A stretch of 64,000 nt of DNA from Polytrichum commune (taxonomy: Eukaryota; Streptophyta; Polytrichopsida; Polytrichales; Polytrichaceae), in NCBI GenBank assembly GCA_950295325.1, contig OX485808.1, forward strand, positions 9,240,501-9,304,500. The letters are read 5' to 3'. Below the pieces are notes generated by a model, which saw only the letters and a program-made list of their open reading frames with translations, searched no databases and was not told the origin of the DNA. The number at the start of each line of letters is the position of its first letter. Position 1 is the stretch's first letter. The position numbers and the translations under genes were made by a program. This document shows positions 6,032 to 51,935 of the stretch, one piece after another.

Positions 6032-6938
6032 CTTGGCCTTTGTACACCGTGAGAGATTTTAGATTTCAAGTGGTCATGGGCCTTGAAACTCTCGTGTTAA
6101 GTACCTCTTGGACTTGTACATGTGGCTCAATCTTAGTTTCAATTGATACTATCGATGTCAATAATAAATCATACCTTGGTCATAACTAAAATAAGATCAA
6201 TGATAGTTTTTTTTTGGGTTATCAATTGTTCTTTTTCTTCTTCATTGAAATCTTTGTCAATAGTTTTATGGTTGCACTTTTTTTGTAGTCAAGTTTGTCA
6301 TGGGTTGTCGCAATTATTCACATTCTCAAATTATTCTAGTTTAAACTTCATGCTACTATACACACAAAGTGGTGTATTAGCAAACCAACTTTTGAAAAAC
6401 TTAATCATAGACTTCATAATATAAGGTAGTTGCACCTATGATTGACCCCTCTCCAATACCAAGCCCCTTGGTTGCCTCATCAATTCCAATCAGAGGGTAC
6501 TTAATGTGGACTAACAATAGGGTCGAAGAGTAAAGAAAATCTAAAATTGAGCAGTTCTATTGGTCAAGATTGCAATTTTGAACCGGAGGAATTTACACTA
6601 AGGTCCGCATTCAAGGTACCAAAAAATGAATTGTATCTTATGTGACATTATTGTCCAATCAAATCTTGGCAGTCTCAACTCAAGAAGATACTCCATCTAT
6701 TATGAGAAACCAAACTTCAAGCTTGAGTCCAATTTTGAGTCCGAATTTAAGGTCTATTTAGGGTTGTTTTGGACTCCAAGTTTGTTGGGACCTAGGCCCT
6801 AAGGTAGACAACCCTTGTTAATGCACAACTATATTTGAGTAGTATGTGGTTAGGCATGCATCCAAGAATGGATGCCAAAATGACAATGTGTGTATAAAGA
6901 GATTGAACTGCATGCTCAAAATATGATAACTACTCTAA
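6032..6938. other. Intergenic, nothing recognised
   Basis: AT-rich sequence with only short open frames. The 93-residue frame at 6143-6424 is low-complexity and unsupported. Confidence 0.5.
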
Positions 6939-7469
6939 TGGGGCATTCCCACCTGACATTAGTTAGAAGTAGTTTTAGTCTAAAAGCGGTTTTAGTTATC
7001 TAGGGTTCACACATACGGCTCTTTTTAGTGCCGAGCCTAGTTGGCAAATGATGTGGCATGGCTTAAAAGTGGAGGTTTTAAGCCTCAACCACCGACCCTC
7101 CCATCGGTACCTAAACATGAGGCAAGAATATAGGAACTTTAAAAGTGTCGCCTCCCACCCTTGTGATTGGTTGCTTTTTAGTCTTAGCTATGAGGGCACG
7201 AGGAGCTTCATTAACAAAAACCGATGGTAAGATAGGTGAGTAGTAAGGCATTTGGGGATGGGACAAAAACTACCCAACATTCATTGCTTGGTAGATAAAA
7301 CCATGAACATGTGTGAAAGCTACTTAACTAAAACCTACTTGAAAATCTCCGGAGCAAGTTCTTGTAGGTGCATTGGGATAGTCGGATGCCTCCGCTATAA
7401 CCGAGGGAGCTTTACCCGGTTTTTAGGAAATACTTTGGGTCTTAACTAAAGTCAGGTGGGAAGGGGGCA
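6939..7469. mobile_element. Inverted-repeat element, family H, uninterrupted copy
   Basis: A 531-bp element with imperfect terminal inverted repeats that share TTCCCACCTGAC followed by (A/T)TTAGTTA. Its reverse complement is closely similar over its whole length to 45804-46102 plus 51443-51663, which together are a second copy split by a CACTA element. This copy supplies the empty site for that insertion. No convincing target duplication is visible around this copy (TACTCTAA against TAAGTTCA), so it may be old. Two open frames inside it (7048-7230, 7252-7449) are not conserved in the second copy. Confidence 0.75.
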
Positions 7470-8052
7470 TAAGTTCAATAGTGTAAACAATTGGGGGACC
7501 TATATGACCGTTTGAAGAGCTAGAGAAATTCACTTTGATAATAAACAAGATTCATATGAGCTCCAACATTTATGAGGGAAGTGGCGACGGCCTTGATTTG
7601 GATTTGCTAACCATCTCGTGCTAATCGCGGGTTTCATATTCTAGGAGAAGTGGGCTAGTCACAAAAAGGAATCATGTAAGACTCGTCTGCCTTTTTGTGT
7701 ACCCACTCTTAGATTGTCACCATTAGCAGGTTAGGCTAGCTATACAGGGTTAATCCTATAAGTGTGGGTTGAAAATTCTTTGTTGGTCAAAGCACTGCTG
7801 CACGCATCTGAGTCTGTTGAAAGGAGAAGGTGCATTTCGATAATTAAAGGCTTCAGTCATCATGCATCCTGACTTTGGAGTACTCTATTCTTCACTTACA
7901 GCAATTTTCATGATCAGCAATAGCTGTTAAGTTGTACAAATCGACCGTGGGAAGGTTAACTTGATACACAAACTTTAGCTCACAGTCCATCAGATGTATT
8001 TGATTGGAGATTGTGACGCCAAAACCTACCGAGGACTTCAAAATAGAGGTCT
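7470..8052. other. Intergenic, 3' of the callose synthase gene
   Basis: No gene or bounded repeat recognised. It separates element H from the duplicated 3' end of the callose synthase gene. Confidence 0.5.
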
Positions 8053-8598
8053 GCCTTGAAGGAGCTCTCTATTATTAAGTATATGATGAATTATGGCCAC
8101 TCAAGTCATATACTTGCGACCCTGACTGCTGGGAGATTTTAGCGCAGCTCAGTTTTGGACACATTGTCTTTATGAAGGACCACTCTAGACATACCTCTTC
8201 AAACATTCCATCGACGTTATATGGTACAAGACGAATGTAGATTTATATTGCTGAGTGGTGGTTGAGTGAACGAACAGTGCTCACCCATTTGATACGGTGG
8301 CCTTCTTTCGTGTGTGGCCTTCTTGCCCACCAGTATTCGTGAAAGTTGAAGGCTTCTGCTGAAGGCCTCGTTGTAAAGGATCCGTGTCTGCATGGATTGG
8401 AAGCCAGGAAATTAACCAAGACAGGAAGGCAACTGGAGCCATGAAGATCAAGCCAATGCCATGGTCGTAGAGGCGTGCAACGTCTTTGACAGTGTCCCCA
8501 AACCTCGGGGTGCTCCGGGAATGGGTGCCTCAACACGAGGCAGAGCTGGATGAGACCCCAGCACGTGGGTAAAAATGCAAGGAGCTTGCAAGGATTTC
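8053..8598 (-). pseudogene. Broken tandem copy of callose synthase terminal exon and 3' flank
   Basis: This ~545-bp block matches 8599-9135, which is the 3' flank plus the last ~100 codons of the active callose synthase gene, as a head-to-tail tandem copy. Minus-strand translation gives the family sequence [19 protein letters not shown] and then loses frame near 8508, where an extra C sits in a run of Cs relative to the active copy. The downstream part (Arg-Leu-Tyr-Asp, Met-Ala-Pro-Val-Ala) is readable only after changing frame. It lacks the RXTG segment and everything upstream. It lies beyond the active stop codon and is most simply read as a non-functional segmental duplicate. Confidence 0.85.
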
Positions 8599-8837
8599 CT
8601 TCAAGGAAGGAACTCTCTATTATTGTGTATATTACAATTAGGGCCACTCGAGTCCTAGACTCGCAAACCAGCTGAGTGCTGTGAGATTTTAGCACAGCTC
8701 AGTTTTGGATTTATTGTTTGTATGAAGGACCACTAGACTAAACTTAGCTGTTCAAACATTCCATCGACATTATATGGTAGATTACTGAGTGATCGAGCAG
8801 TGCTCACCCATTTGATGAGCGCGATCTCGTGGGGCAG

Positions 8838-11800
8838 CTAGTCATCATGCCTGGCCCTCTTGCCCACCAATATTCGTGAAAGTTGAAGGCCTCTACTGAA
8901 AGCCTCGTTGTAAAGAATTCGTGTCTGCATAGACTGGAAGCCAGGTAACCAAGACAGGACGGCGACTGGAGCCATGACGATCAAGCCCATGCCGAGGTCG
9001 TAGAGGCGTGCTACGTTTTTGACAGTATCCCAAACCTTGGATTGTTCCAGAAACGGGCGCCTCAACACGAGGCAGAGCTGGATGAGACCCCAGCCGGTGG
9101 GTAAGAATGCAAGGAAGCTTGCAAGAATGTCCAGGAACCTGAAATTAGTCAGTTTCCATAGCACAACGATCACCGCTGCAAGGACAAGAATTGTCACAAC
9201 TTGGATCGAACGGTAAACACCTTGTCTGTTGGTGGCATAGCGTTCGTTGGCCTTGGAAAGAATGAGATGAAGTATCGCTGCACCAGCCATGTAGGTCCAG
9301 GATGCGAGATAGACATAGATGTTTGTGTTGTTGCCGGTGATTTTGAGATGATACACAATCCCGTACTGGAAAAGGAAGAAACGCAAGGTGAGTATGATCT
9401 CCAACAGCTTGCCCCAGACTCCAGTAGTGCGATAATGCGCCTGTTCCTCTTCCCACCAAACCGCCCAGCTTTGCTCGCCTCTGACAAACACGTCACCCTT
9501 GAACCAAAGCCACTGCAGAAAGTCTTCAAAATCTTCAACTGTCTTTAGCCAATCGAAGCCAGAGGGGTTAAAGACAAATGGGGCCATTATCCATGTCAAT
9601 GCCAAGAACCAGCTCGAGATCATGACTAAAATGTACGTGGCAGTCGAGCTGGCAACACCGTAAGCCAAGTAACAGAAGAGTAGCAACAGAAGCTCGATGC
9701 CTTTAACAAAATGGCTCCTCGAATATAGCCGATAATTATCTGCAAATTTCTCATGCTTGACCACGAAACCACGTCCTGTGGCCCGATACTGCAGACAAAT
9801 ACACAAAATAGTCAATAACCTTGTACCCTATACTGCAAAAACTATGCTGTGAGGGTGAGAACTGGAAGATTTAAGACCCACTTCTTATCAATCTGATTGC
9901 AACACATCACAATTGATAAAAGGTATTGCTACGTCCATATAGCAGAAGTCATCTCATATCCTAGGAAAGTTGGGAAATTGATTCGAGGAGGTTCCGCCCT
10001 TGTACAGATATGAACAACCTAAGATTAAAGGTAACAATACGCATAATCGTGAAATACTCCACAAATCTGATGACGATTCTGCTAATATAACAAGAACGAT
10101 CTCAATATCAGTTTACAATACCCTCTTTAGTCCTAGATGTTTGATAATCTTTACTAATTTGAAACGTTACATGTGACTCGAAATCTTTATTCCTTTATCA
10201 CTTGCAGTTATGTAACACGTGGAGTGCGAACCCGGAAAATGTGATACAATATAGAGAATTGGGTGATTTAAAAAGAGCTGGTTGACACGGAGGGATGGAA
10301 TATCAATCTCCAATCACCTTGCTCAAGTCAGAAACGTGATGGTACTGACAAGAAAGAAAAGCCATACCTTCGCACCACCATGTAGAATGGTGCGGCCAAA
10401 GTAGTGACATCTTGTACCCATTGAAAAGGTGAAGAATACAGAAGCAAGTTGCAGTTGCATAGTAATCATGTTCCACATTGCTGTTGTGAACCCGTGCTCC
10501 AAAGCATCTTCCACAAGCATTGGCAGCGCAGTCAGTAAACCCAACTGGACCACAAGCTGCTGGTTCAAAGCGGCTGTGAGGGCCGCGTTCGCAAGGGCAT
10601 TTGTTCCAGTGGTTAATGATTTCTCTATTCCACTTAAGGCTAGATAAACACGACCCCACAAGAAGGCGTAGACTGTGAGGACAACCAGCATATTGCTCAC
10701 AAAGAAACCGACACTGGTATAATAGAAGGAAAGCATTCGAAAGAAATCTAAGTGGTGACCAAGACGATATACATCCCGGCTGAGCATCTGCTCTCCGTTC
10801 CCGCTCGCCACTTTTGCTTCAAAATTTGCGATTTGGTTCAGTCCAACATCCCTTCCCTTCCCCGCCTATATGCAAACACGATGTCAACCAATCAGACTGC
10901 GATACTGTTGAGTTGCTTCCCAAATACCGTAACTCAAGGCTAGAATCCAATTTCGACATGTGCATTGAAGGTAAGCTGTAGCCATTTCCTCGAAGTCAAT
11001 TGGTCAAGGTAGTTTACCTGGATGTATTCGTGATGAGTCACGGTACCTCCACGTAGGGTACAATTAAATCCTGCAAAAATGTCTTCACTGATATTGATAG
11101 TTTGAGATGCTTTGCTAATACCGCCACGACCCATGAACCACAAGCGATCAAATACATCCGGATGCCCGTAGTGCATCCGAATCTTCAGCGGGTTAGCCAG
11201 GATACGTTGGCTAAGGGTAACAAAGACTGTTTCTTGAGCTGACATGAACCAAGCCAACGATGAAACTGATCCAGTAAAAACATGTTCACGGACACCCAAG
11301 ATTGTGGGTTTTCGAATGCCATGAAAGCGAGTAAATTCTTGTAGCAAGTTTCTGACTTTAATTGCTTCCTCAAAGTACATTTCCTGTCATACATGGGTTA
11401 CAAAGTTAGAACATTGCAACGCAACCATGACATAGCCTTCTAAAAAAGTAATCTATGCACCCTCATATCCCACCAAGAGAGCCTGAAGATTGTAATGTAT
11501 TATTTCTTTCATGCAGAACTACACACCTATACGAACACCCTGTAGCGATAGTACTCTGATCTGGTCACGCAATCATGTGATGACGAGTTCTGACTTCGCG
11601 CTTTGTACTATTATACTGCTGACCTCCAAAATTGTTCACTTGAGTGCAAAGAGGCTAATGAAAGGAAGTTTGAACAGTTTCTACTGAGAAATTTTGAATT
11701 TGCAGTTGAATGAAGGCTCAAGCAAGAAACTTGAAACCCGAACTAGAATTATCAGTACTTTAACTTTGAGAACCTAATTTATAGTAGAATGTGAAATCTA

Positions 11801-32700: not shown

Positions 32701-34664
32701 TTGTCCTAAAAGACCCTTGTTGAGGGTGAGGTTAATCCATAGACGTGTTAGGCATTTGCAATGAGGAGGGGAATCTACTAAGCAAAGGCCAATCTTTGAT
32801 TTTGTGTTGTGTTGGCCAATCTATGGAGGTGTTGCCAGTAACAAAACATTTCCATTTCATGAGGTGGTTGAGAGAAACCATTTTACAAGCAATTAAAAAA
32901 CATATACGAGGTCTTTGTTGTATTGGTCAATATGGAAACCAAGAAGGGATGTGGATGATAACAAGGTGATAGCCTCCAAGTAGGGACCTGCCAAAAGTTG
33001 GGCCGAGAGATATTTTCTAGGGTGTGCAAGGTGGGCAAGTGTGCATGATGTTGTAGGATTTTTTTGGACAAAACGATGTTGTTTGTGGTGGTCACCTTTA
33101 CATTGTACATTGTGGAAATGTAGGGTTCACATGACTTGGGAACAATGATGGGAGAGTCGGTCTATTATGTACTTGAAATATATATGGTTGTCAAGGGATT
33201 TGTTTAGCGACCATTTGCTAAAGACAAGTGGTGGGAGATGAACACTCGTATGATTTGAAGTGGTCCACACTGTTTGTGTGCATTAGGTGCTACCCAACAA
33301 GGCATGAAATGTACTTTTTGTATGCAGCTCCAAAATGAGTTCATTTTGTTTTGGATTTCATATGGTAATAGAAGACAAATGTGCCTTTTAGAAGATAGAT
33401 TTTGATCCTTGGGGATGGGGGGTTGACTTTTTTTTTTAAAAGTTGGAATGGTACAACCAAAGATATGGTATATTCTATTAGTTGTACCTTTTTTTTTGAA
33501 TATTTTAGAGGTAATATATGATGGATAGAATGTTCCATATTGGATTATAACTAATATAAGGTCTTATTTAACATATCCGACTTTTTTTAGATACAACATA
33601 TTATGTAGGATATATTATCTTCATGTTGATAATGAAGCAATTGCATGTTGTTTGTGCCAATGTTTTTGTAATGACAACAATTTTGAAACCTAAGTTATTG
33701 AAGTTTAGAACTTACAATCGTCAATGCCAAAGGAAGTGATATTTTGAACTCAATGTCTTTTAGTGCCATTCTTTGATAAGTTATTCTTAGTTTTGGCACT
33801 CAAATTGTTAGAAATATCTCTATCTTTATTTTTTATATTTCACTATTCTAATTTATTTCAATTCATTATGATAAACTAAGGGGCTAAATAAACACCCTTT
33901 CAAACTTTGTAAGTCATTATATGGACCCTTAAAACACTATGAATTAGATTCTTAAGTAATGAAACGGTTCATTTATTTAATCCAAGCTATCAAAATAACC
34001 CCTACAATAATACCCCTATGTTGCATGTGATGTACAACCCTCCTCAAGGACTCATCTCTATAATTTCAACCAATTATTATTTTTTCTAATTAGAAACGTG
34101 TTAAAATCCCTCTATCAATCAACAAGTATTTCTCACTGACAACTCAATGTAGCGGTGACACAAAACCTTAAGAAGTTCATTCATGAACATTATGATTCAA
34201 AAACTACAATAAATATGATATTTAGTGTCATTTACTATTTGGAATTATGCAATGCTATATTTATTTACTGTATATCTCATATTTTACCAACAGATGTGAA
34301 ATTGGCACTTTGAACATTATAGAAGATCAACAACTTTACTTGATAAAAAGAACATCAACAGTAAAAGATATAACACTATGTGAATCCACATAGTAATGAC
34401 AATAAATATCATATTTAGTGTATTCAAAGAGCAAAACTTATAGGTGGGCTTTTCCATTCATTTATTAATGGAATTTCTTGGGACTTAATAGATTTCAAAG
34501 TAGATTCTATGAAATTCTAGGAGTCCATGCATATTAATAAATTAACTTACTAAGAAGGTTAACTAAAATGTACTCATATTTTTATACCCGGGGGGTGCAC
34601 CTTCATACAAGTGTGTTTTTGTAAAATTATGCAACATGTGTACAATTTCAATTCGCCACAATGC
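29729..34664. other. Long intergenic stretch without recognised genes
   Basis: About 4.9 kb of AT-rich sequence. All open frames are under 80 residues (for example 31628-31906 on both strands, 32745-32969, 32883-33110) and none shows a family motif, splice pattern or conserved frame. A TA/GA simple run lies near 31207-31236. A GC-rich sequence CCCGGGGGGTGCACC at 34587-34601 resembles one MITE end, but no partner end was found. Confidence 0.4.
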
Positions 34665-37059: not shown

Positions 37060-37551
37060 GATGGAACAAAGTGCCTACAAGAGAGAGAGCAAAAGAGCGG
37101 AAGCAGGAACAAGAGTGCCGACAAGAGAGAGAGAGCAGCGAAGGGCAGCGGCGGATATCTGACAGCGAGCGAAGGAGCGGAAGACATTTGGCATCCAAGG
37201 AGCAGACCAGGCAAATGAGATGGATTGACCCAGCTTACCCGGTTATATAGGCCACGGGAACAAGCTTGGGTAGCAGAGCGTGACCCTAGGAAGTGGGAAT
37301 AGGGTTAAGTTGAGAACCGAAGAGACACCAATTAAATTAAGCATGTGCACAAATTAAGTGGATGAATGAGGACAAGATGAATACATAACTACTAAACACC
37401 AAGAGTTATGTAAATCATGGAGACATCTTAATGTGATAGATATAGAAAATAAGAAGTGAAGACCCTAAATCCAGGTTTAAAATAGATGACGTACTATATT
37501 TAGCCGCAACTGATATTCAAGGAATTTTGAAGGAAGCTAGATGTTAAAAAC

Positions 37552-37559
37552 TATATAAG
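37552..37559 (+). promoter_or_regulatory. TATA box of LTR-like copy A
   Basis: TATATAAG in the context AAAACTATATAAGAGGCC. It is identical in copy B at 43785-43792 although surrounding positions differ. Position and context resemble plant LTR retrotransposon promoters. Confidence 0.6.
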
Positions 37560-37920
37560 AGGCCAAAGTTAAGGACCCTAATACACTTCATTTCACCACG
37601 AAGACTCTACATGAGTGTCGGGAGTCTTTGGTCTCTCTCTCAAAGCTTGGGTAGCTATCCGAGGCATATTCAAACCCTAACTCGGGGGTATTAGAAATAA
37701 TATTGCGCCAAGGAAATAAAAGATTTCGGTTTGCTTACCCCGGTACTAAGATTCCTCAAAAGGAATTGGGAGCATGAAAGCATCAAGGTAAATTATGGAA
37801 TGGATCACATTGGTGTGGGTGATGGGAGATACCTTGAAGGAAGGTAAAAGTGCATAATTACTCAACGGTCCGTTCGAGGGGATTTCCAAACCACGAACTC
37901 GAGCCGGCCAAACGAGGAAA

Positions 37921-37928
37921 TGACGTCA
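37921..37928. promoter_or_regulatory. TGACGTCA palindrome (bZIP-type site), copy A
   Basis: A perfect 8-bp CRE/TGA-type palindrome, retained at 44157-44164 in copy B. It lies downstream of the TATA box, so any role would be in the transcribed part of the unit. Known as a bZIP (TGA factor) target; function here is inferred. Confidence 0.45.
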
Positions 37929-38376
37929 TTATAGTGAACGTGGCCACTCATCAATAGGAAGGGAGGTTTCGAGGATGTCGGCGATCGGGCAAGTCACGCC
38001 TATTGTGATTAGATCCTTTAATCATCACACAATGCCGAAACCGAACTAAGGTAAATTAAGGGAAAAGAAGGGGAAACACAGGATTTCGAATGAAAGCTCC
38101 GACCATATTTACATTCCTTGAGACATCCCCTTTGACGAAGGAGGTATTTACTCTAAATCCTTGTAATTGGAGAGCTCCTAGGGATAGGCATGCAAGGTAA
38201 GGAGTATCTCTTATACCCGATACTCTTCTAGTCAATTCAATGGGATTTGAATAAAGGAGGACGGGTGAAGTTAACCCCGTTACATGCATGTGCAAAGGTG
38301 TTGGGCATTAAAAGTTGGATTTCCTAAAGATAATTTGAAATTCATAAGAGACCATGGGTGTTATTATAACATAACG

Positions 38377-38388
38377 TGGTATCGAGTT
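38377..38388 (+). other. Primer-binding-site-like sequence, copy A
   Basis: TGGTATCGAGTT follows a short spacer after a CA-ending terminus. The first seven bases match the standard plant tRNA-iMet primer site. Copy B has TGGTATCAAGTT at 44612-44623. The second half of the site has diverged from the consensus in both. Confidence 0.5.
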
Positions 38389-39085
38389 CGTAAATAAATG
38401 TTGGAGAAACTAGAGAATTCTCATGAGTTCCATTTAGTGAGAGAGTATGCTTGAAGCTATAAACTCTCTTAAGGGAACATTCTTGGAATAATTGAGAGAA
38501 TAAGCAAGGTTTTAGTCATTCAAACCATGAAAGAGTTTGGAATAACTCTCTTAGATAGTAGACATAAGAATGGTGTTCCTCTAAGAACACTTAACCTTGA
38601 CATTAGGATTTAGGGGAACGTTAACTTAGAATCCTAGGGCACCTACCCCTCGGAGATTCACTCGACGAGAATACCATATTAAATTAGTATGCATCAATCC
38701 ACCTTCATAATGGAAACATAAAGAGGGCTAATTTGGATAGGAGTAATGTCTGTGTAAACCGGTCAGTAGCGGGTTACACCGTCTAAGGCTGAGGGTTGAA
38801 GGTGACCTCGACAACAATGCGTAGTTTCCACCCAATATAAGATCTAAGGGTAGGTATTCATGGTTGAGATCCTTGTAAAGGCCGAACTTTGGATTTGTGT
38901 TGTGATTTTTGTCTACTATGAGTCCGAAGGTGTTCTACTTGTGGATTGCGTCAAGGTTAGTGCATTACATTGTTTAATGCATCGACAACGGTACATTGTG
39001 TTTGTGATGGTGCATTGGCATACCTTAATGAAAACCCACGTGTGCATTTTGGCACTCAAAAGGCCCACTTGAGTTGTTGTGCTTA

Positions 39086-39962
39086 AGCCCAAAAGAAAGT
39101 GTCCAAAGGCCGTCCCAAGATGCCTCCAAAATCATAGTCAAGGACCCTCAAATGTAGTGTGAAGCCACATGTGACCGGACCCTCAACCAAATGCTATTTC
39201 AATGAATTTCTATTTGTGCGGGTCTTCACACATGACAAAATAGATCAAATTAATGGTTGTGAGCATTCCGAGTGCCACGGTCTCCCAATGGTTTTGTGTT
39301 AGGCCTAACTCCAAGAAGTGGTTTTAGAAAATAATCCAAGTGACCATGAAACATGATCCATTGGATGCCATGTAGGAATCCATGTGGACTTTACATCCAT
39401 CTTGCATTCACATACTCCGTTGGTCCCTCGAGCATAGTGTGAAGCGAACTTGGACCAGCTCCCCCTTTTCCACCAGTGAGAGTGCTTGAAGTCACGGGGA
39501 GGTCACTCCATTGTAAAGTTAACAACCACGTGTGAACACTTTACATGTAAAAGATCCTACTTTTTACATAAAGCATCACCAAAATGGGTCAAACTTTTAT
39601 CAATTTTTTTTTCATGAGTAGATATACACAGTACTTATTACATAGATAAAAAAAATGGTAACTAAATATGATGATTTGTTTTCTTTATAAAACATACCGT
39701 TTCTAACTAGAATGACATAGAATTGAACTAAAAATTTCATCAAAAAAATTAAGATGACTAAAAATTTCAAAAATATATACAAAAGATACCATCAATGGTT
39801 ATGTATATGTAGAAAAATATCATAAATTTTAAAATTTATCTATGACATGTAATATAGGGGTGGCAAACTTTGTTCGCCAGTGGTGTTCAACTTGACAATG
39901 GAGTGACCTCCCCGTGCTTGAAGTGTATTGGCTCTCAGTCTCGTGTGTGAAGTGGCCCTTAT
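39086..39962 (+). repeat. Left arm of a long inverted repeat (family D), MITE-containing
   Basis: Apart from the MITE at 39493-39916 and its duplicated flank, this ~445-bp arm is the reverse complement of 41833-42248. Shared landmarks are CCCAAAAGAAAGTGTCCAAA, AAGGCCGTCCCAA, CATGTGACCGG/TATGTGACCGG, ATGAATTTCTAT, GAGTGCCA(C/T)GGTCTCCC and GAAGCGAACTTGGACC. Transcription across both arms would form a hairpin with a ~1.87-kb loop. Confidence 0.8.
39493..39916. mobile_element. 424-bp hAT-like MITE with an in-window empty site
   Basis: The left end is CACGGGGAGGTCACTCCATT and the right end is its complement, with perfect inverted ends for at least 20 bp. Exact 8-bp duplications CTTGAAGT lie at 39485-39492 and 39917-39924. 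The opposite arm of the enclosing inverted repeat (near 41877-41887, minus strand) has a single CTTGACGT followed by GTAATGG and no insert. The ends resemble those of the element at 62283-62568 (C(A/T)CGGGG(A/G)G(G/T)TCACTCC), so both belong to one family. No transposase frame. Confidence 0.9.
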
Positions 39963-41832: not shown

Positions 41833-42248
41833 ATAAAGGGCCACATCACACACGGGACTGAGAGCCCGTGACCATTACACGTCAAGCACTCTCATTCGTG
41901 GAAAGGGCGGAGCCGGTCCAAGTTCGCTTCACACTACGCTTGAGGGACCAACATAGTACATGGCATCAAATGGATCATGTTTCGTGGTCACTTGGACTAT
42001 TTTCAAAAACCATTTCTTGGAGATGGGCCTAACACAAAACCGGGAGACCATGGCACTCCGAATGCTCACAATTGTTGGTTTATTCTATTGTATCATGTGT
42101 GAGGACCCGCATGGATAGAAATTCATCGAAATGGCATTTGGTTGAGGGCCCGGTCACATATGACTTCACACTACACTTGAGGGTCCGTGACCACATTGCA
42201 TGATTTGGAGGTGCTTTGGGACGGCCTTTGGACACTTTCTTTTGGGCT
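41833..42248 (-). repeat. Right arm of the long inverted repeat (family D), empty-site copy
   Basis: Reverse complement of 39086-39962 without the MITE. It has a ~35-base deletion relative to the left arm in the segment after ATGCCATGTA. It retains the unoccupied target of the 39493-39916 insertion. Open frames across it are not conserved in the other arm. Confidence 0.8.
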
Positions 42249-42349: not shown

Positions 42350-45040
42350 CACAAAAAGAGAGAGAGGACGAGAGCCGGGTATCAGAGAAGCCGAAGGAGC
42401 GGCAAAGGACCACCTCCTAAACCCTAAATGCAGCAGACGGTTAGCAGGCCAAGGAGATGGTCCGAGAACCGGCCTACCCGGTTAAGTAGGTAGCGGGAAC
42501 GGGCTCTGGGTACAGGGTTCGGGAGATTTTTGAGCTCAACCGGCTAAAATCCGTCCCTTCATAATTTCTACCGGTTTTTTGAGGATTTTATCGGTTGCAA
42601 ACTTGTTGTCATTAATTTGGATCGGCCAATATCCTATATTTTCTTTCAAGTGTTGGTTAATTTCCTCTTCATTGTAATGACAACCGGCCAAAAACTCGGG
42701 CATTGATAAGTAAGTTGGTTTTCCAATTATATCTACAAATAACATACACTATTCAACAACAATGTCCAGAGAACATATCAACATACAACAATAATATGTA
42801 ATGATATCAACATCCAACAAGAATGATCAACAATTTATCCGTAGCAGGAGTTGAACCTAAAATAAGCCATCAACCGGTTGATGGTCATGGATAAACTCTT
42901 CTATCATACCTAGGTCTTAAAACCTCATATTAGATTTGAGGCCACAACATGATAAAAGAGTAACCTAACATACCATACTATATACAAAAATGAAATTCAC
43001 GAACTATTAGAGTCAAAATCAACAATATCATCTTCACCTTCAAGAGGAAAACGCCCTGAAAGGTATCTTTGTGGATGTGAAAACAACCATCTAAACTTTG
43101 TAGAGTTCCTTCATAAAGCTATGGCTTCCATTAGTACATTATCAAGATCACCACAAAGATCTTCCATAGACACACTCATAATACATTCTAAACGCTAGCT
43201 GTCAACAATGAAATGCAATAATGAAGCAAAAGCATCGTTAAGTTTCATGTGACCTACACGGCTGAGAACCTCCCTCATTCAATATCCGCCCATACCCTCG
43301 GGAGACCCAACTCATTTCCGCCATTTTCTGAGCCTGAGGGGTTAAATTTCCTACATTATCTCATATTGGTCGGTTGATTTCCTATACTCTTCATATTTAA
43401 CTCAGTTATGCAGCCGAAATCTCCCAAAAAAATCGGTAATATTGCAATTTCACTCGGCTAATTTACAACTAGCTGCCGGATCTCCCCAATCATTGCCTGG
43501 GTAGCAAGGCTTAATCTTTCAGTAGTGAGAATAGGGTTGAAGCCGGGAACCAAAGAGGCACCATTTAATTAGAACATGTGCATAAATTAAATGGATGAAT
43601 GAGTATGAGATGAATACATAACTACTAAACACCAAGAATTATGTAAACCATGGAGACATCTTAAGGTGATAGATATAGAAAATAAGAAGTGAAGACCCTA
43701 AATCCATGTTAGAAATAGACGACGTACTATATTTAGCCACAGCTGATATTAAGCGAATTTTGAAGGAAGCTAGATGTTAAAAACTATATAAGAGGCCAAA
43801 GTTAAGGGCCCTAATACACTTCATTTCACCACGAAGACTCTACATGAGTGTCGGGAGTCTTTGGTCTCTCTCTCTCAAAGCTTGGGTAGCTATCCGAGGC
43901 ATATTCGAACCCTAACTCGGGGGGTATTAGAAATAATATTGCGCCAAGGAAATAAAAGATTTTGGTTTGCTTACCCCGGTACTAAGATTCCTCAAAAGGA
44001 ATTGTGAGCATGAAAGCATCGAGGTAAATTATGGAATGGATCACATTGGTGTGGGTGATGGGAGATACCTTGAAGGAAGGTAAAAGTGCATAATTACTCA
44101 ACGGTCCGTTCGAGGGGATTTCCAAACCACGAACTCGAGCCGGCCGAACGAGGAAATGACGTCATTATAGTGAACGTGGCCACTCATCAATAGGAAGGGA
44201 GGTTTTGAGCATGTCGGCAACCGGGCAAGTTACACTTGTCATACTTAGATCTTTAATCATCACGCAATGCCGAAGCCAAACTAAGGTAAATTAAGGGCAT
44301 GAAGGGGAACGTTGGATCCCAAATGAAAGCTTCGCCCATGTGCATATTCTTTGAGACATCCCCTTGGAATGAAGGAGGTATTTACTCTAAATCCTTATGA
44401 TTGGAGAGTTCCTAGGAATGGATCCGCAAGGTATGGAAATATCACTTATGAACGAAATTCTTCTAGTCAATTCAATGGGATTTGATTAAAGGAGGACATG
44501 TCAAGTCAACCCCGTTACATGCATGTGCAAAGGTGTTGGGCATTAAAAGTTGGATTTCCTAAAGACAATTTGAAATTCATAAGAGACCAAAGGTGTTATT
44601 ACAACATAACATGGTATCAAGTTTGTAAATAAATGTTGGAGAAACTAGAGAATTCTCATGAGTTCCATTTAGTGAGAGAGTATGCTTGAAGCTATAAACT
44701 CTCTTAATGGAACATTCTTGGAATAATTGAGAGAATAAGGAAGGTTTTAATCATGCAAACCATGAAAGATATTGTATACAAGAATGGGGTGTTCCCTCTA
44801 AAACACTTCACCTCGACATTAGGATTTAGGGGAACATAAGCTTGAAAACTTAGCTAGGGCACTTTCTCCTTAGAGATTCACCAAGAGAAAACATCATGTT
44901 AACTATTAGGAACATTGTGCATAAGACCACCTTCAAGATTAGAAGTTTTATAAGCAAGCTAATTTGGATAGTAGTGTTTGTGTAAACCGGTCAGCAGCGG
45001 GTTACACCGTCTAAGGCTGAGGGTTGAAGGTGACCTCGAC
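42350..45040 (+). repeat. LTR-like repeat unit, copy B, interrupted
   Basis: Same unit and orientation as 37060-38814. Blocks 42350-42512 and 43496-45040 together match copy A; the gap is the family C element at 42513-43495. It keeps the TATA box (43785-43792), the TGACGTCA site (44157-44164), the primer-site-like sequence (44612-44623) and the same abrupt end (GGTGACCTCGACA). Small indels and many substitutions against copy A show the two are not recent duplicates. No coding capacity. Confidence 0.65.
42513..43495 (+). mobile_element. 983-bp long member of family C, inserted in LTR-like copy B
   Basis: Left end CAGGGTTCGGGAGATTTT and right end complement CAATGATTGGGGAGATCCGG form imperfect inverted repeats. 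The flanks TCTGGGTA (42505-42512) and CCTGGGTA (43496-43503) match at seven of eight. Copy A has a single CTTGGGTA there, giving the empty site. The interior again carries CCGGTT/CCGGCT motifs. No transposase frame was recognised; the minus-strand 69-residue frame at 42536-42745 is unassigned. Confidence 0.75.
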
Positions 45041-45795
45041 ATCTCATGGTCACGGCTCTTGGCTCGTGTGTGAAGTGGCCCTAAGTGGCTCATTTTCCTT
45101 GTACTCCATTTTATGTGGATCATATATGCGTCTTTGTATGCATGTTGCATTAGCAAATCTATGATGAAATATCCACAAAAATTTGGTTGAGAATTGGACC
45201 TCATTGGATTTAGTTATGATTATTGGAAGTGCATGTTTGTTGATTCTTTAAGTGATTTCATAGGTCCCTCCCAATTGCGTTCATTATTAAGTGTAGCATA
45301 GTTAACATAATTTGAAAAGGTAATCCAATCTCTATTAAGTATGTGTCCTTATGGTGTTTGTTCTTTGATCTCTCACCTAATCACACACCAATCAAACATA
45401 GTTGTATGATTAAGAAAAGTCGCATTGAATAACACCCACATAAGACACATGATGAGGGTACTTAGAACCATGTTAGTGTGTAATTAGCTCATTAGGTGTC
45501 GTTTCCAAGACACATGATGAGTGTGTAAAGATAAACTTAAAGGCAATAAGTAAACATGATGTGATTCTATGATAGGAGTTATGCAATTCTAAAATGAGAC
45601 CTCTTGAATCCATCATAGCACACTCCAACATAATACTTAATAATTCATAGCTAATTATAAAATGATAAATTAAATTCCAAAAAATTGACCAACTTTTATT
45701 CAGTTCCTCTACAAAGGAAACAAATTGCATGCCAAATTACATGTGTACATAAATATCAAAATTGCTCAAGTTGTAGTTTTTTATAATAGGGCAAC
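45041..45795. other. Intergenic, partly family D-like
   Basis: The first ~60 bases (CATGGTCACGGCTCTTGG, CTCGTGTGTGAAGTGGCCCT) match the outer end of the inverted-repeat arms at 39925-39962 and 41833-41880. So LTR-like copy B sits next to, or inside, another family D fragment. The rest holds no recognised feature. Confidence 0.45.
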
Positions 45796-46309
45796 TTACC
45801 TTATGACCCCATCCCACTTGACTTTACCATATAACCAAAGTCTTTCCTAAAAATCGGGTAAAGCTCTCTCACTTATAGTGGAAGCATCCGGCTATCCCAA
45901 TGCACCTACAAGAACTTGCTCCAAAGATTTTCGAGTAGCTTTTAGTTAAGTAGTTTTCACACATGTTCATTGTTTTATCTACCAAGCAATGAATGTTGGC
46001 TAGTTTTTGTCCCATCCCCAAATGCCATACCACTCATCTATCTTACCATCAGTTTTTGTTAATGAAGTTCCTCGTGCCCTTATAGCTAAGACTAAAAACA
46101 ACCACTACAAGGAAAACACGAAAAAATGATTGGGATTTATGACTAATATAGGTAAGAAAGTGCATTGATAACTAGCATTATTTTTAGTCCTCAACCTGGT
46201 CATGTCGGACCAGTCGCTCCAGACAAAATGACTATGGTCATATGGGATAATTTTTGTTCCCCATGGGGTTTTGGGACCTCGTTTTGGGCTGCCCCTCGAC
46301 ACTTCGTCA

Positions 46310-46890
46310 TTTTTTATTATATTTAGTCATACCTATGTAATTATATTTAGTCATGTGTAGTTCTATCTTTTGACTAGAATTAGTCATGTTTTGTATTTAT
46401 ATGACAACATAATTTTCACTACGTGTAGTTATATGACATGTACATTCGTTCATTAACAACTACTATTAGTCATATTGTGACTTAAAATAATTATATGATA
46501 CATGAATGTTTGTTAAAATGAGTCATCTTTGGTGTTTTGTGTTATGAGGGGTTAGTCATTATTTTTGGTCTAGTAATAAGCATTTCAATTTTGATGACTA
46601 AATGTAGTCATTTCATATAACTATAAATAGTATATTAAAAAATTGAAAGTTATATTCATGACAATTATACTATTAGTATGAACAAGATAACTAAGTATAG
46701 TCATCATTTCAAATATTTTACTCCATAATATGATCAAATGTAGTCATTATATTTAAATAATTTACAATAAAATATGACTGAGCATAGTCATCATATTCAA
46801 ATAGTGTACTACAAAAGATGAATCTGTATAGTCAATATATTGAAATATTTTACTACAATAGATGACAAAGCATAGTCAATGTCTACATAG
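46310..46890. repeat. Subterminal AGTCAT repeats, left end of the CACTA element
   Basis: TTTAGTCAT, TAGTCAT and variants recur many times at short spacing in both orientations. Matching clusters occur at about 47484-47655, 48760-48945 and 51180-51420. In En/Spm elements, short subterminal repeats bind the element-encoded protein; the same role is inferred here. Confidence 0.65.
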
Positions 46891-49800
46891 ACTTTACTAT
46901 GAGACATCTCACGTATATATGTCATCCACTAAATATATTCAAACTACTTATTATATATGCTATACACTACTACCCATTATCTGTCCAAAATATGTTTATT
47001 ACATTCACCTACGACTTTATACATGCATGGCGTAGAAATTCGGTGGACTACAACTTCTCCAATCTTCTTGATATGAGGGTTATCGAATTCTACAATCCTA
47101 AAGAGGTTATATTCATCATCGTTGCTCCTCTGCACCTCTAGAGATACACAATCTTTATATATTATACTTTCATGCAATGTATCCCCTTTTACATTTGTTG
47201 TTTTCAGGGTGCAAACATCTTTCTATAGTCTCCTTTTTTATAACCCATCACTTGCATAACATCCCATGTTGAAAATGTGGAGGGTGGTGGAGCTTCTTCA
47301 TCCGCTGCGACTATCTGCAGTTCCAATGATTACGTACATCAAAACCTCATGAAAAAATCATGTAAGTAAACATGCGATTGTTGACATCGTTTAGGGTCAT
47401 CTTCTTATCTCCTAAATTTGAGGTTTTGTATTTGGCGTTTTTCTTATACACATGGATGATTCACAAGTGAGTACACAACCACTAGTGATGACTAACTACA
47501 TAACTAGTGTTTCTAGACTAATGACTATGACTTAGATGACTATTCTTAGTCACCTTTTCTATTAAAATGACTAGTCTTAATCATGTTTTCTAAAGTAATA
47601 ATTAGTCTTAATCATATTGTTTAAACTAATGACTAACGTTAGTCATATTTTCTAAAAAAATTGGGTTTAGGGTTACGCACCTTTGCTGCAGGTCGTTGAT
47701 TCGGCGGCGGTGTGTGCTTTTCGTCCCATTTTGTCATCTCGTTGTTGTCGTCGTCCCCATTCCCTCTAATGCAAAGGTCTTCTTTCTTTGGTCTAGTATT
47801 AGATCAAACATGGAATATCAAGTAGAAGTAGGTCCACAACTTGGTTTAAAACAACCACTATGAAGAGTTCACCTTCTTTTACCTAGAATAGGGATGTTTT
47901 TGGAGTCTTCAAACATGTCAAACAACAACATTGACATTCAATCCAAAACAACACTCGACATTTATGGCATTCTAGCAATTCCTTAGAATACCTCTTCTAC
48001 ATGCTCACCCATTTAATTGGCTACGGACCTCAATATCACATGTACAAAGGAAGACGGCAAGAGTAGAGGTATTTGAGCCATTTTCCTTGCAATGGAAGAC
48101 CAATGTTGAAACAATAATTGATTCAAAGGTTAGAGACACCTAGAAGCAAACTTCACACCTCAATGTAGTAACAAAACTTCAACTAAAGAGATGAAGGAGA
48201 GGACCAAGCACGCTAAACCAAAAGGAAGAACGCCGAAGAACAAATGAAGGTCAAAGAACAACACACTCGAGCAAAGAGGGAAGCGGACACGGAAATAGGT
48301 ACTCGACCACGAAATTATAAGGAAATTGCGCGGTAATAGAGTAGGTAACCCACGGGGATAGGGTAGGCAGTGGTTTTAATGAAAAAGATCTCCAATGTGC
48401 AAGGGAGATTATAAATATTATTGTCAACAATTAAAGGGACAATTTGTAAGGACATTATAGGAGAATATAGGACTAGTAATTAGCATCCAACGTGAAATTT
48501 CCTTTGCCAACTTAAATCATTTTGATTTTGTCATTTGTGCCCAATCTTCACAAGAGTAGATTAGACACAACCCTCCAATTATAAGCAATTAAGGCAAGAA
48601 CTTGCGGACAAGCCAATGTCGTAATGACTGGCAATGACAACTTAAATGGCGGTTTTAAATTTATAGTTTAGGTGTTTAATAGGTGGCGGATGTATTAGGG
48701 TTTAGGGTTTCTTTTACATGTCATCCATGTTGCATGTAGGTTTTAAGTTGTTTATTCTTGATGACTACATGTAGTCATCAGTTTATAAAGAGAATGACTT
48801 ATTTAGACATGGTTGTCCTACATGTATGACTAGTCTTAGTCACAAATCCTCGGATAGGTTTAGGTATTTCTCTATTGCTTATTACATTGATTATTATTGA
48901 TAGTCATCTATTTGCTTATTGAGCACTACAACTAGTCATAAGTTGACTAGGCATAGACGTGATCAAATTCATTTATTGTAAAATTCTAAATAATCCAACC
49001 GTCGTCGCTAGACTTGTATATGTCCTTCGCAAGATTGTCGTGTACAAAAAAGAAATTGGACCCCTTTCAATTGCATGGAAACATTTGGAAATGGATCCGA
49101 GATCACAAGAGGATCTTCTGCAGTTTAATTATGGGACATAGAGGAGAAGAAAGCAAATAAAGAACAACTCACAAGTTACGCATGCCCATATTAAAAAATG
49201 CATGGGTGCAAAAATGTTGTCAAAGAAAACCATCCGTAAGCATCTTCGAGAGTACAAGCGAGATCTCGAATTCAAGAAATCAACCATAATATGTTTGCTA
49301 GACATCATTGATGTTTGTCTTCTAAGGAGTGTCTAGGTGGGATGGTGTGTAGTTTGTTATGTTGCATTCAAACATGTATGAAATGCAGAGACCTTATGTG
49401 CAGGCTGCAACAATTGCTGCTTTACAATCTATAATTTCAGCTATTCTACTACTTCAAAGGATTGGAGAGCCTAATTCATTTAGCAACCAAAAAAGGTTGG
49501 CGCGTAGTTTGGGATGGATACTTTTCATAGGCAATGGGACCCATGAGCAATTCCAAAGCTCGCTCTCTTTACACATTGGAATAAGAAGTAAGAGGTTAAA
49601 GTGTTAGCGCATTCATACATGAAATGGGTGTATTTGCATTGCAAGCAACAATGGTCAAGGATGAATTATTGTCATTTGTAGGGTAATTATTTTTTAGAAC
49701 GGAATGCAAAAGTATGTAAAAAAAAAACCCATGGTTTATAAAATATATGCTACAACTAAAGAAAATTATCTACCAAAATGAGGATGTTTTGAATGTAAAC

Positions 49801-50295
49801 ATCGCATGTTTCATTTATAACTCTACTGGGAGGGAGGAGATTGCCAATGTGCAATGGGACTGTATGTCGTTGTCTACACCATGGAACCTAAAGCCTAAGA
49901 ATATGCTATGTTGTAGCAACATGAGAGATTTAAGAAGGATATGAACTATTCACATATTACCCAATAAATTGAACCACTATAGTCGCATTGAGTGAGGCAT
50001 GGATCCACTCCTTCATTTGGCATAGTTTAGCAAGAGTTAGCAATCCCATATTTTAGATGTCATCTCTAAAACGAACTGTTGTAGCCGACTTCCATACGGA
50101 TGACAAAATGTAGTCATTGTTTTGGACTCTAGGACTATAAACTTTGAAACCATGTGGATAATTAAATGTAGACCTTATATTTGACTCTATGACTACAAAA
50201 TTTGAACATAGTTACTGGAATATCCAAATACTGAAAGCAAACATGAAGAATTCAAAATTATACGAATGACAACATAGTGCCTAGGCAGGTACAAC

Positions 50296-50403
50296 AACAA
50301 CCCTACCGCAATTAATGATGGACTCGAGGATGACGAAGATGCCACTGCCATGGAAGAAGAAGAGTTCGAGGAGGTAGAGTTATTGAAGGTCCTAGAGGAA
50401 TAA
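50296..50403 (+). other. Acidic coding-like fragment inside the CACTA element
   Basis: The open frame reads NDGLEDDEDATAMEEEEFEE and continues to a TAA at 50401-50403. The Glu/Asp density looks like a protein C-terminus rather than random AT-rich DNA. No splice acceptor or partner exon could be placed with confidence, and I do not recognise the family. It may be the tail of the element's lost or captured gene. Confidence 0.3.
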
Positions 50404-51935
50404 ATTAATCCATTATATGAGGGTTATCGAACAACGCATTTAATTGCAGTGCTTCTTCTTTTAAATTGCTTTACGTTTTTTTGAGTATCAAATGCATGTG
50501 CAGATGATTCATACTCTTCAAATTTGATCAATTGATCCCTTATTCAGCAAATTCATTTGCATTTCCCCTTCATATGCAACAATTGTTTTTTTTATAAATG
50601 ACAAAAAAAGGTGGAAGATTATTTAACAAAGAGATCCACAAAGCTCAAGAATATCATCAAAGGTAGATAGAAGACCTGAAATGCATAGTCTGTAGTAAGG
50701 CAAATCTGAAGAGCATCATGGCCTAAGGCCCATATCCACTTCCATTGACACGGCACATGGTACCCATGTATTGAGGGGATGCAGGGTTCTAACTATGGAA
50801 GATGTTGAACCGAACATTGGACGTTGTGAAAGAACATCCAAATTTGGAAGATGATGTTGTCTGACATTAGGAAGGGAGGTCGCATGACAAAGATAGTAGG
50901 TATCGGTGCATATCATTTTTTGTGACTGTATAGACTGTGTATTTGCATATTGCAAAGCCAAGAAATAAAGTATAATGTTGTGTAAAAGTAATAGAACTCA
51001 AAAGCATTGCAAATAAGTAAAATATGATTGTATTGTCAAAATACAATATACAACCCACAAAAATGTCATTGTCATAAAACATTTGCTGAATTGATCAAAG
51101 ACCCCAGACTCACGACTTGAATAAGTACGAAGGAAGTCCAAATGCAATATAAAAACCATTCACTATTAGGACCTGAAAATCATAGTTAGCCAAGTACTAA
51201 TCTTAGTGATGTGGTCCGTTATGACTATCATGAAAATTAAAAAATCTTGAGAGAACATGTTCCCAATATGTTCTCTACACGGTTCACATCTAGGTCATGT
51301 CCAATATGACAAAAAACCTAGTCATATGATGACTACAGTCACTTCTAGCCATCACTTTGGTTCAACATGACTGCCCTAAAACTGATAGTCATATCTGGTC
51401 ATATGGTCGTAGTCATTTTTTCGTGTTTTCCTTGTGATAAACCAATTACAAAGGCGGGAGGTGACACTTTTAAAAGTCCTACATTCTTACCTCATGTCTA
51501 GGTACCGATGGGAGGGTCAGTGCTTGAGGCTTAAAACCTCCACTTTTAAACCTTGCCACATCATTTGCCAACTAAGCTCGGGACTAGATAGTGTCGATGG
51601 TGTGAAGGCCGTGTTTTTAGAACCAACTTTTAGGCTTAGGTAAAGTCAAGTGGGAAAGGGGCATTACCTTAATATTGCTTGTTTGGTTTCGGGTTCTCTA
51701 CGCAAACGTACCCTTTACACAGCGCATCATTCTGCCTACTTTCATGCTTTATTGATGTTGATATTTTTCACCAGCCCTTTACGCAATTTTCGTTTCTGTA
51801 GCTGAACGGCTCAGATGGATCATTACTTCGACAGGGCACTATCTCAGCCGTTCATTTAGTAAGCCTAAACGCCCTCGCCCACTGACAGGCAGCGTACGCC
51901 AGGCCATAAGTCCTAGGGCACGTAGCGTCCTCGAG

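Follow-up and report, generated by a model that had tools for sequence, protein, structure and literature searches.

The segment 46103-51439 of the window, the whole 64,000-nucleotide stretch of Polytrichum commune DNA that was analysed, is very probably a non-autonomous DNA transposon of the CACTA (En/Spm) type that relied on proteins supplied in trans for its movement. The segment has inverted ends, a target-site duplication, a related empty site and arrays of a palindromic motif, and recognisable coding sequence is absent from it. Its CACTA identity, as read from the ends, and its insertion by transposition are both supported. The element into which it landed, a member of family H, is an older and smaller mobile element. 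In the mechanism we propose, a transposase and an accessory DNA-binding protein would be supplied by a relative elsewhere in the genome, and these proteins would bind the terminal repeats and the palindrome arrays. They would then cut the element from its donor site, and insertion would proceed via a 3-bp staggered cut at AAC within the family H element. The features are listed in Table 1.

Table 1 Features of the CACTA-like element, its insertion site and the related family H copy (window coordinates).
Feature	Position	Strand	Basis or remark
Non-autonomous CACTA-like element, 5,337 bp	46103..51439	.	Inverted ends, AAC duplication, related empty site
Left terminal inverted repeat, starts CACTACAAGG	46103..46129	+	Terminal alignment
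Right terminal inverted repeat, outer four + strand bases GATA	51413..51439	-	Terminal alignment
AAC target-site duplication, left copy	46100..46102	.	Adjoins left end
AAC target-site duplication, right copy	51440..51442	.	Adjoins right end
Interrupted family H copy, left part, ends in left AAC	45804..46102	.	89.4% over 311 columns to 6939-7469
Interrupted family H copy, right part	51443..51663	.	86.8% over 167 columns to 6939-7469; far end aligns poorly
Uninterrupted family H copy, paralogous empty site with single AAC	6939..7469	-	Alignment to joined flanks
Left palindrome array, 11 units, ≤3/14 mismatches	46313..46879	.	43-44-bp spacing from 46687 on
Internal palindrome array, 4 units	47536..47646	.	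31-bp spacing
Internal palindrome array, 5 units	48759..48960	.	Includes perfect 22-bp palindrome 48759-48780
Isolated palindrome unit, 1 mismatch	50100..50117	.	Palindrome scan
Right subterminal region	51193..51439	.	One weak palindrome at 51193 plus half-sites

The left terminus of the element reads CACTACAAGGAAAACACGAAAAAATGA, and the right terminus, as its reverse complement, reads TATCACAAGGAAAACACGAAAAAATGA. Terminal positions 5-27 of the two ends match in 23 of 23 bases (self-blastn E 3.8e-7), as the original prediction had counted, and the mismatches between the two 27-base termini are at positions 1, 3 and 4. On the + strand, the right end has GATA in place of the AGTG that would complete a perfect inverted repeat with the left end. 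The ends had been called canonical, which holds for the left terminus, where the start expected of the CACTA superfamily is found at 46103, and does not hold for the right terminus, where the inverted CACTA is missing and the reverse strand reads TATCA. The element is CACTA-like by descent, rather than an intact CACTA element, because its right terminus is TATCA while the 23 bases next to it match the left end in full. The 3-bp target-site duplication typical of the superfamily is present, with AAC on each side of the element and only one AAC in the paralogous empty site. PIF/Harbinger elements have TTA or TAA as their target-site duplication, and membership in that group was rejected, as the duplication here is AAC. 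No second copy of the element or of its 200-bp termini was found within the window. The exact 23-bp repeat had no match in viral contigs and prokaryote genomes, neither of which is a plant collection. Judged by titles, the only match of a literature search with CACTACAAGGAAA was on an unrelated subject, and a search with CACTACAAGG and "transposon" gave no match titled on CACTA elements.

To put the ends against chance, we note that the + strand of the window contains 72 CACTA and 75 TAGTG sites. A strict scan of the window for CACTA...TAGTG pairs, with a separation of 200-20,000 bp, identical trinucleotides outside the two ends and no more than 4 mismatches in 14, returned none, which counts against the CACTA reading. 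When the right end is left free, an exact inverted 10-mer partner at a distance of 0.2-20 kb is found for six CACTA starts, counted over both strands. Two of these six, the 46103-51439 element and 34207-34420, have 3 mismatches of 27, and the 46103-51439 element is the only one with a 3-bp repeat. Among the 367 such partners produced by 100 mononucleotide shuffles, none combined at most 6 mismatches of 27 with a 3-bp repeat. A second CACTA element nested between the internal arrays was also considered and rejected, as the window holds no qualifying CACTA/TAGTG pair.

The two flanks were joined by script, and the insertion site was examined by aligning the joined sequence to 6920-7490 in reverse complement. 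The empty site in the family H paralogue (reverse complement of 6939-7469) reads AAAAAGCAACCAATCAC, and the joined flanks read AAAAA-CAACCAATTAC. The joined flanks contain one AAC and no extra bases relative to the paralogue, and a single G is missing two bases to the left of AAC. This alignment had been proposed as a check in the original prediction, and it leaves no unmatched sequence at the junction; both the AAC duplication and the interruption of a family H copy were recovered. The empty site had further been described as preserved. The unsplit copy does carry a single AAC, but it is paralogous, not orthologous. As the other H copy is a paralogue, 6939-7469 is a related empty site and not the ancestral locus. 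Its weight as evidence is limited by this paralogy and by the one-base difference beside the junction. Over the whole copy, the H alignment has 443 identical columns among 520 ungapped ones and 11 gap columns, and one 50-column block near the far right end contains 27 differences.

The match of the left H arm includes 10 columns, of its 311, that fall inside the CACTA-like element, because the first bases of the element resemble the next bases of H itself. This resemblance between the H bases past AAC and the left end of the element also makes the left 46100-46112 and the right 51440-51454 look like an imperfect longer direct repeat, and the reading of a 3-bp duplication rests on where CACTA starts. 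A resemblance that scores as high is found at 21 of 2,110 AAC sites, the empty site included. Since the unaltered left end also resembles H there, the insertion site was already somewhat similar to the end of the element beforehand, by chance or by preference.

According to the original prediction, the right end had decayed to GATA and the element was probably immobile for that reason. The right end does differ. The 23 adjacent bases are perfect, however, and the changed bases follow H inversely, so that a local event, a failed excision or a prior variant compete with ageing as the origin of GATA. All three terminal mismatches lie in the outer four of the 27 paired positions (conditional P = 0.0014 for 3/3, in a test chosen post hoc), and the altered right end CCTTGTGAT exactly inverts ATCACAAGG, the sequence that adjoins AAC in the unsplit H copy. 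Because of this clustering and this inverse match, the GATA at the right end is probably more than plain decay. The element is likely immobile at present through its altered right terminus, as CACTA is a highly conserved end motif according to the excerpted text of PMC8978399.

Four origins of the altered right end were weighed. Tentatively, the altered bases may have been copied from the neighbouring H strand. The CCTTGT end and the ACAAGG of H past AAC form a near-palindrome, and a template switch during replication or repair would have rewritten the end toward a perfect one. A neighbour that is the exact inverse of the altered end occurs at 1 of the 2,110 AAC sites that lie outside the element, counted over both strands; this set includes the empty site itself. 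Copying would explain two of the three differences by one event and would keep the length, but it does not predict the third, at the last base. It also needs the state of the unsplit copy to be ancestral, since the split copy currently reads ATTACAAAGG beside AAC. Moreover, the match was spotted post hoc, and the similarity between H and the element end is itself an event of about 1% (the 21 sites above).

It is rather doubtful that the element inserted with a right terminus that was already variant and typical of its family, in which case it may stay mobile given the proteins. Both ends, in the state they had at insertion, functioned once, as the AAC duplication shows, and imperfect repeats are described for LsC1 and Tgmt*, which are active or putatively autonomous, in the excerpts compared. 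That comparison covers the presence of mismatches. A variant terminus would run against the conservation of the CACTA motif, and it would leave the agreement between the changed bases and H to coincidence. Simple ageing by independent substitutions is doubtful to the same degree. It agrees with the unaltered length and with the nature of the changes: each of the three is a transition, and two go from C to T when read on the right-end strand, a change frequent in methylated transposon DNA. Independent substitutions do not account for the clustering of the changes in 4 of 27 positions, measured by the post hoc test above, with the other 23 unchanged. A later failed excision, in which the end would have been cut, nibbled and refilled to give GATA, is unlikely: incomplete excision did produce lettuce LsC2 from LsC1, with one end lost and a partial duplication (PMC8195511, in the part compared), but here the canonical length is exact and the adjacent AAC is intact.

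The element was also assessed for coding capacity. The arrays had been ascribed to binding by "its lost protein", a wording that presumes that the element once encoded one. Pfam contains CACTA transposase models, and no Pfam domain matched the element at E up to 1 when all six frames were searched with X at stops. PDB sequences gave no match from the three forward frames of the element. Remnants of a transposase or of a captured gene were rejected on these two results, and a TNP2-type transposase gene, which is expected of autonomous members of the superfamily only, was not found. As a control for the Pfam method, a 5.3-kb stretch of the window in which glucan synthase exons are split was searched in three frames and gave matches in two of them (best E 1.4e-132). 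Stops and introns by themselves thus leave the method working, although heavy decay could defeat it. The longest open frame of the element has 93 aa, a length reached by 109 of 200 mononucleotide shuffles. There is no sign that the 46103-51439 copy ever had protein-coding sequence. Rfam gave no match at gathering scores over the whole window. Elsewhere in the window, glucan synthase (callose synthase-like) exons lie on the minus strand at 8.8-12.8 kb (3 of 10 open frames searched); together with the kind of transposon, they point to a land-plant host.

Subterminal AGTCAT arrays, as originally described, are present; they are built from an 18-bp palindromic unit, and 10 of its 22 occurrences are internal, more than 1.2 kb from both ends. 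TAGTCA is the 6-mer most enriched in the element relative to the rest of the window (36 vs 2.77 expected), and AGTCAT/ATGACT occurs 36 times where 3.5 are expected from the rest of the window. The candidate binding unit is ATGACTA-N4-TAGTCAT, with 14 palindromic bases around a 4-bp spacer. Allowing up to 3 mismatches of 14, we counted 22 units within the element against a single one in the remaining 58.7 kb of the window; dinucleotide shuffling of the element, repeated 50 times, gave a mean of 0.7 units and a maximum of 3. The pattern was picked after inspection, so its counts are more fairly judged against those for other spacer lengths and those in the remainder of the window. Among spacers of 0-8 bp, 4 bp stands out, and the runner-up, 7 bp, has 11 units in the element and 6 outside, most of which overlap the 4-bp places.

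The units form an 11-unit left array, two internal arrays of 4 and 5 units, and two singletons. Within 800 bp of the left end there are 11 of the 22 palindromes, and within 800 bp of the right end there is 1. RGTCAT half-sites on either strand number 8 in the last 230 bp and 5 in the first 230 bp of the element. The palindromes and half-sites near the ends provide the subterminal direct and inverted repeats of the CACTA superfamily. The CACTAC strings inside the arrays appear, by eye, to be mutated palindrome units. By analogy with VANC targets, of which they would be the CACTA counterpart, the internal arrays might, over the full length of the element, bind an anti-silencing factor encoded by a transposon and not serve end-pairing, which we consider improbable. 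Spm TnpA is reportedly linked with demethylation (PMC10398659, in the part compared), so a gene-less element could recruit the demethylating protein of a relative via its internal arrays.

It is highly improbable that a rearrangement, or two unrelated insertions, joined the two ends inside family H: the base missing beside the junction, an imperfect direct repeat that could reflect end-joining at short homology and internal arrays that could mark a composite history would fit such an origin, but AAC lies exactly at both ends, the inverted repeat extends over 23 bp and H is collinear across the junction. The ends, the AAC duplication, the related empty site and the shuffle controls instead support transposition, as had been proposed. 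The 46103-51439 segment is an ordinary, well delimited element of a well-known transposon type and leaves the general picture of transposition unchanged. For a CACTA-like family, it supplies exact ends, the target-site duplication and an empty site in a paralogue, and its explicit 18-bp palindromic motif is a handle for finding relatives of the element and the putative binding protein. The altered right end is a small test case for the loss of transposon ends.

Comparisons with known systems were made with excerpts of the cited papers. The presumed common scheme is that of maize En/Spm with TNPA, in which an accessory protein occupies subterminal repeats and the transposase cuts; En/Spm itself differs in its 8.3-kb length, its genes and its 12-bp motif (PMC2613891). 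Most CACTA transposons have neither gene, and lettuce LsC1 is an active 3.9-kb element without transposase that has 28-nt imperfect repeats and an ACC duplication, as described in the excerpt of PMC8195511. The 46103-51439 element is like LsC1 in its kilobase scale, absence of transposase, imperfect terminal repeats and 3-bp duplication. Unlike it, LsC1 has been observed to excise, and the end sequence of LsC1 (published query CACTACTNGAAA) differs; palindrome arrays are not mentioned for LsC1 in the text compared (PMC8195511). A radish element has CACTACAAGAAAA, according to the part of PMC7210773 compared. VANDAL elements with VANC target arrays (excerpt of PMC10398659) resemble the present element in having short tandem motifs in non-coding transposon DNA. 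They belong to a different kind of element, whose terminal repeats are degenerate, and the 46103-51439 element is without a Pfam-recognisable gene.

Soybean Tgmt*, in the excerpt of PMC2613891, has 13-bp terminal repeats that differ at three positions, a 3-bp duplication and subterminal repeats that form stem-loops. The present element shares the 3-bp duplication, the three mismatches in imperfect terminal repeats and the asymmetric subterminal repeats capable of stem-loops. Tgmt* differs in its length of 20.5 kb, its transposase genes, its shorter terminal repeats and its motif TTGGCAG, and its arrays, as described, lie no more than 159 and 732 bp from the ends. Because Tgmt* has such asymmetric, stem-loop-forming repeats, palindromic arrays are already known; as far as the compared text goes, their spread into the interior of the element is the less usual part.

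To the left of the copy of family H (an older, smaller mobile element) that is split by the CACTA-like element, two direct repeats of ~1.5 kb each are found, and they are possibly the two LTRs of a candidate 7.75-kb retrotransposon, which stops ~760 bp ahead of the family H copy. The direct repeats flank a pair of inverted repeats that contain a 33-bp perfect inverted match. A further stretch of 214 bp has inverted ends of 27 bp with 3 mismatches, its minus-strand start reads CACTA, and no 3-bp duplication is found at its ends; it may be an inverted-repeat element of small size. The glucan synthase gene has a tandem direct repeat at its 3′ end, and the outer copy of this repeat appears degraded by eye.

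Inside the CACTA-like element, one perfect palindrome lies no more than 2 bp from the exact midpoint, which is probably a coincidence. The element also contains an exact direct repeat, ATATGAGGGTTATCGAA, with its two copies spaced 3,344 bp apart.

Features accompanying the two mobile elements and the glucan synthase gene
Feature	Coordinates	Property
Direct repeats	37292-38813; 43524-45041	87.5% identity
Inverted repeats	39086-39492; 41879-42248	77% over 413 columns
Small candidate	34207-34420	
Tandem repeat	8058-8599; 8606-9132	77%
Palindrome	48759-48780	22 bp
ATATGAGGGTTATCGAA	47071-47087; 50415-50431	17 bp
TTACCTTA	45796-45803; 51664-51671	8 bp
Other family H copy	6939-7469	

The interrupted family H copy is flanked on both sides by TTACCTTA, an apparent 8-bp duplication, whereas the flanks of the other copy have only TAA in common. 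By general classification rules, family H could be either hAT-like or Tourist-like.
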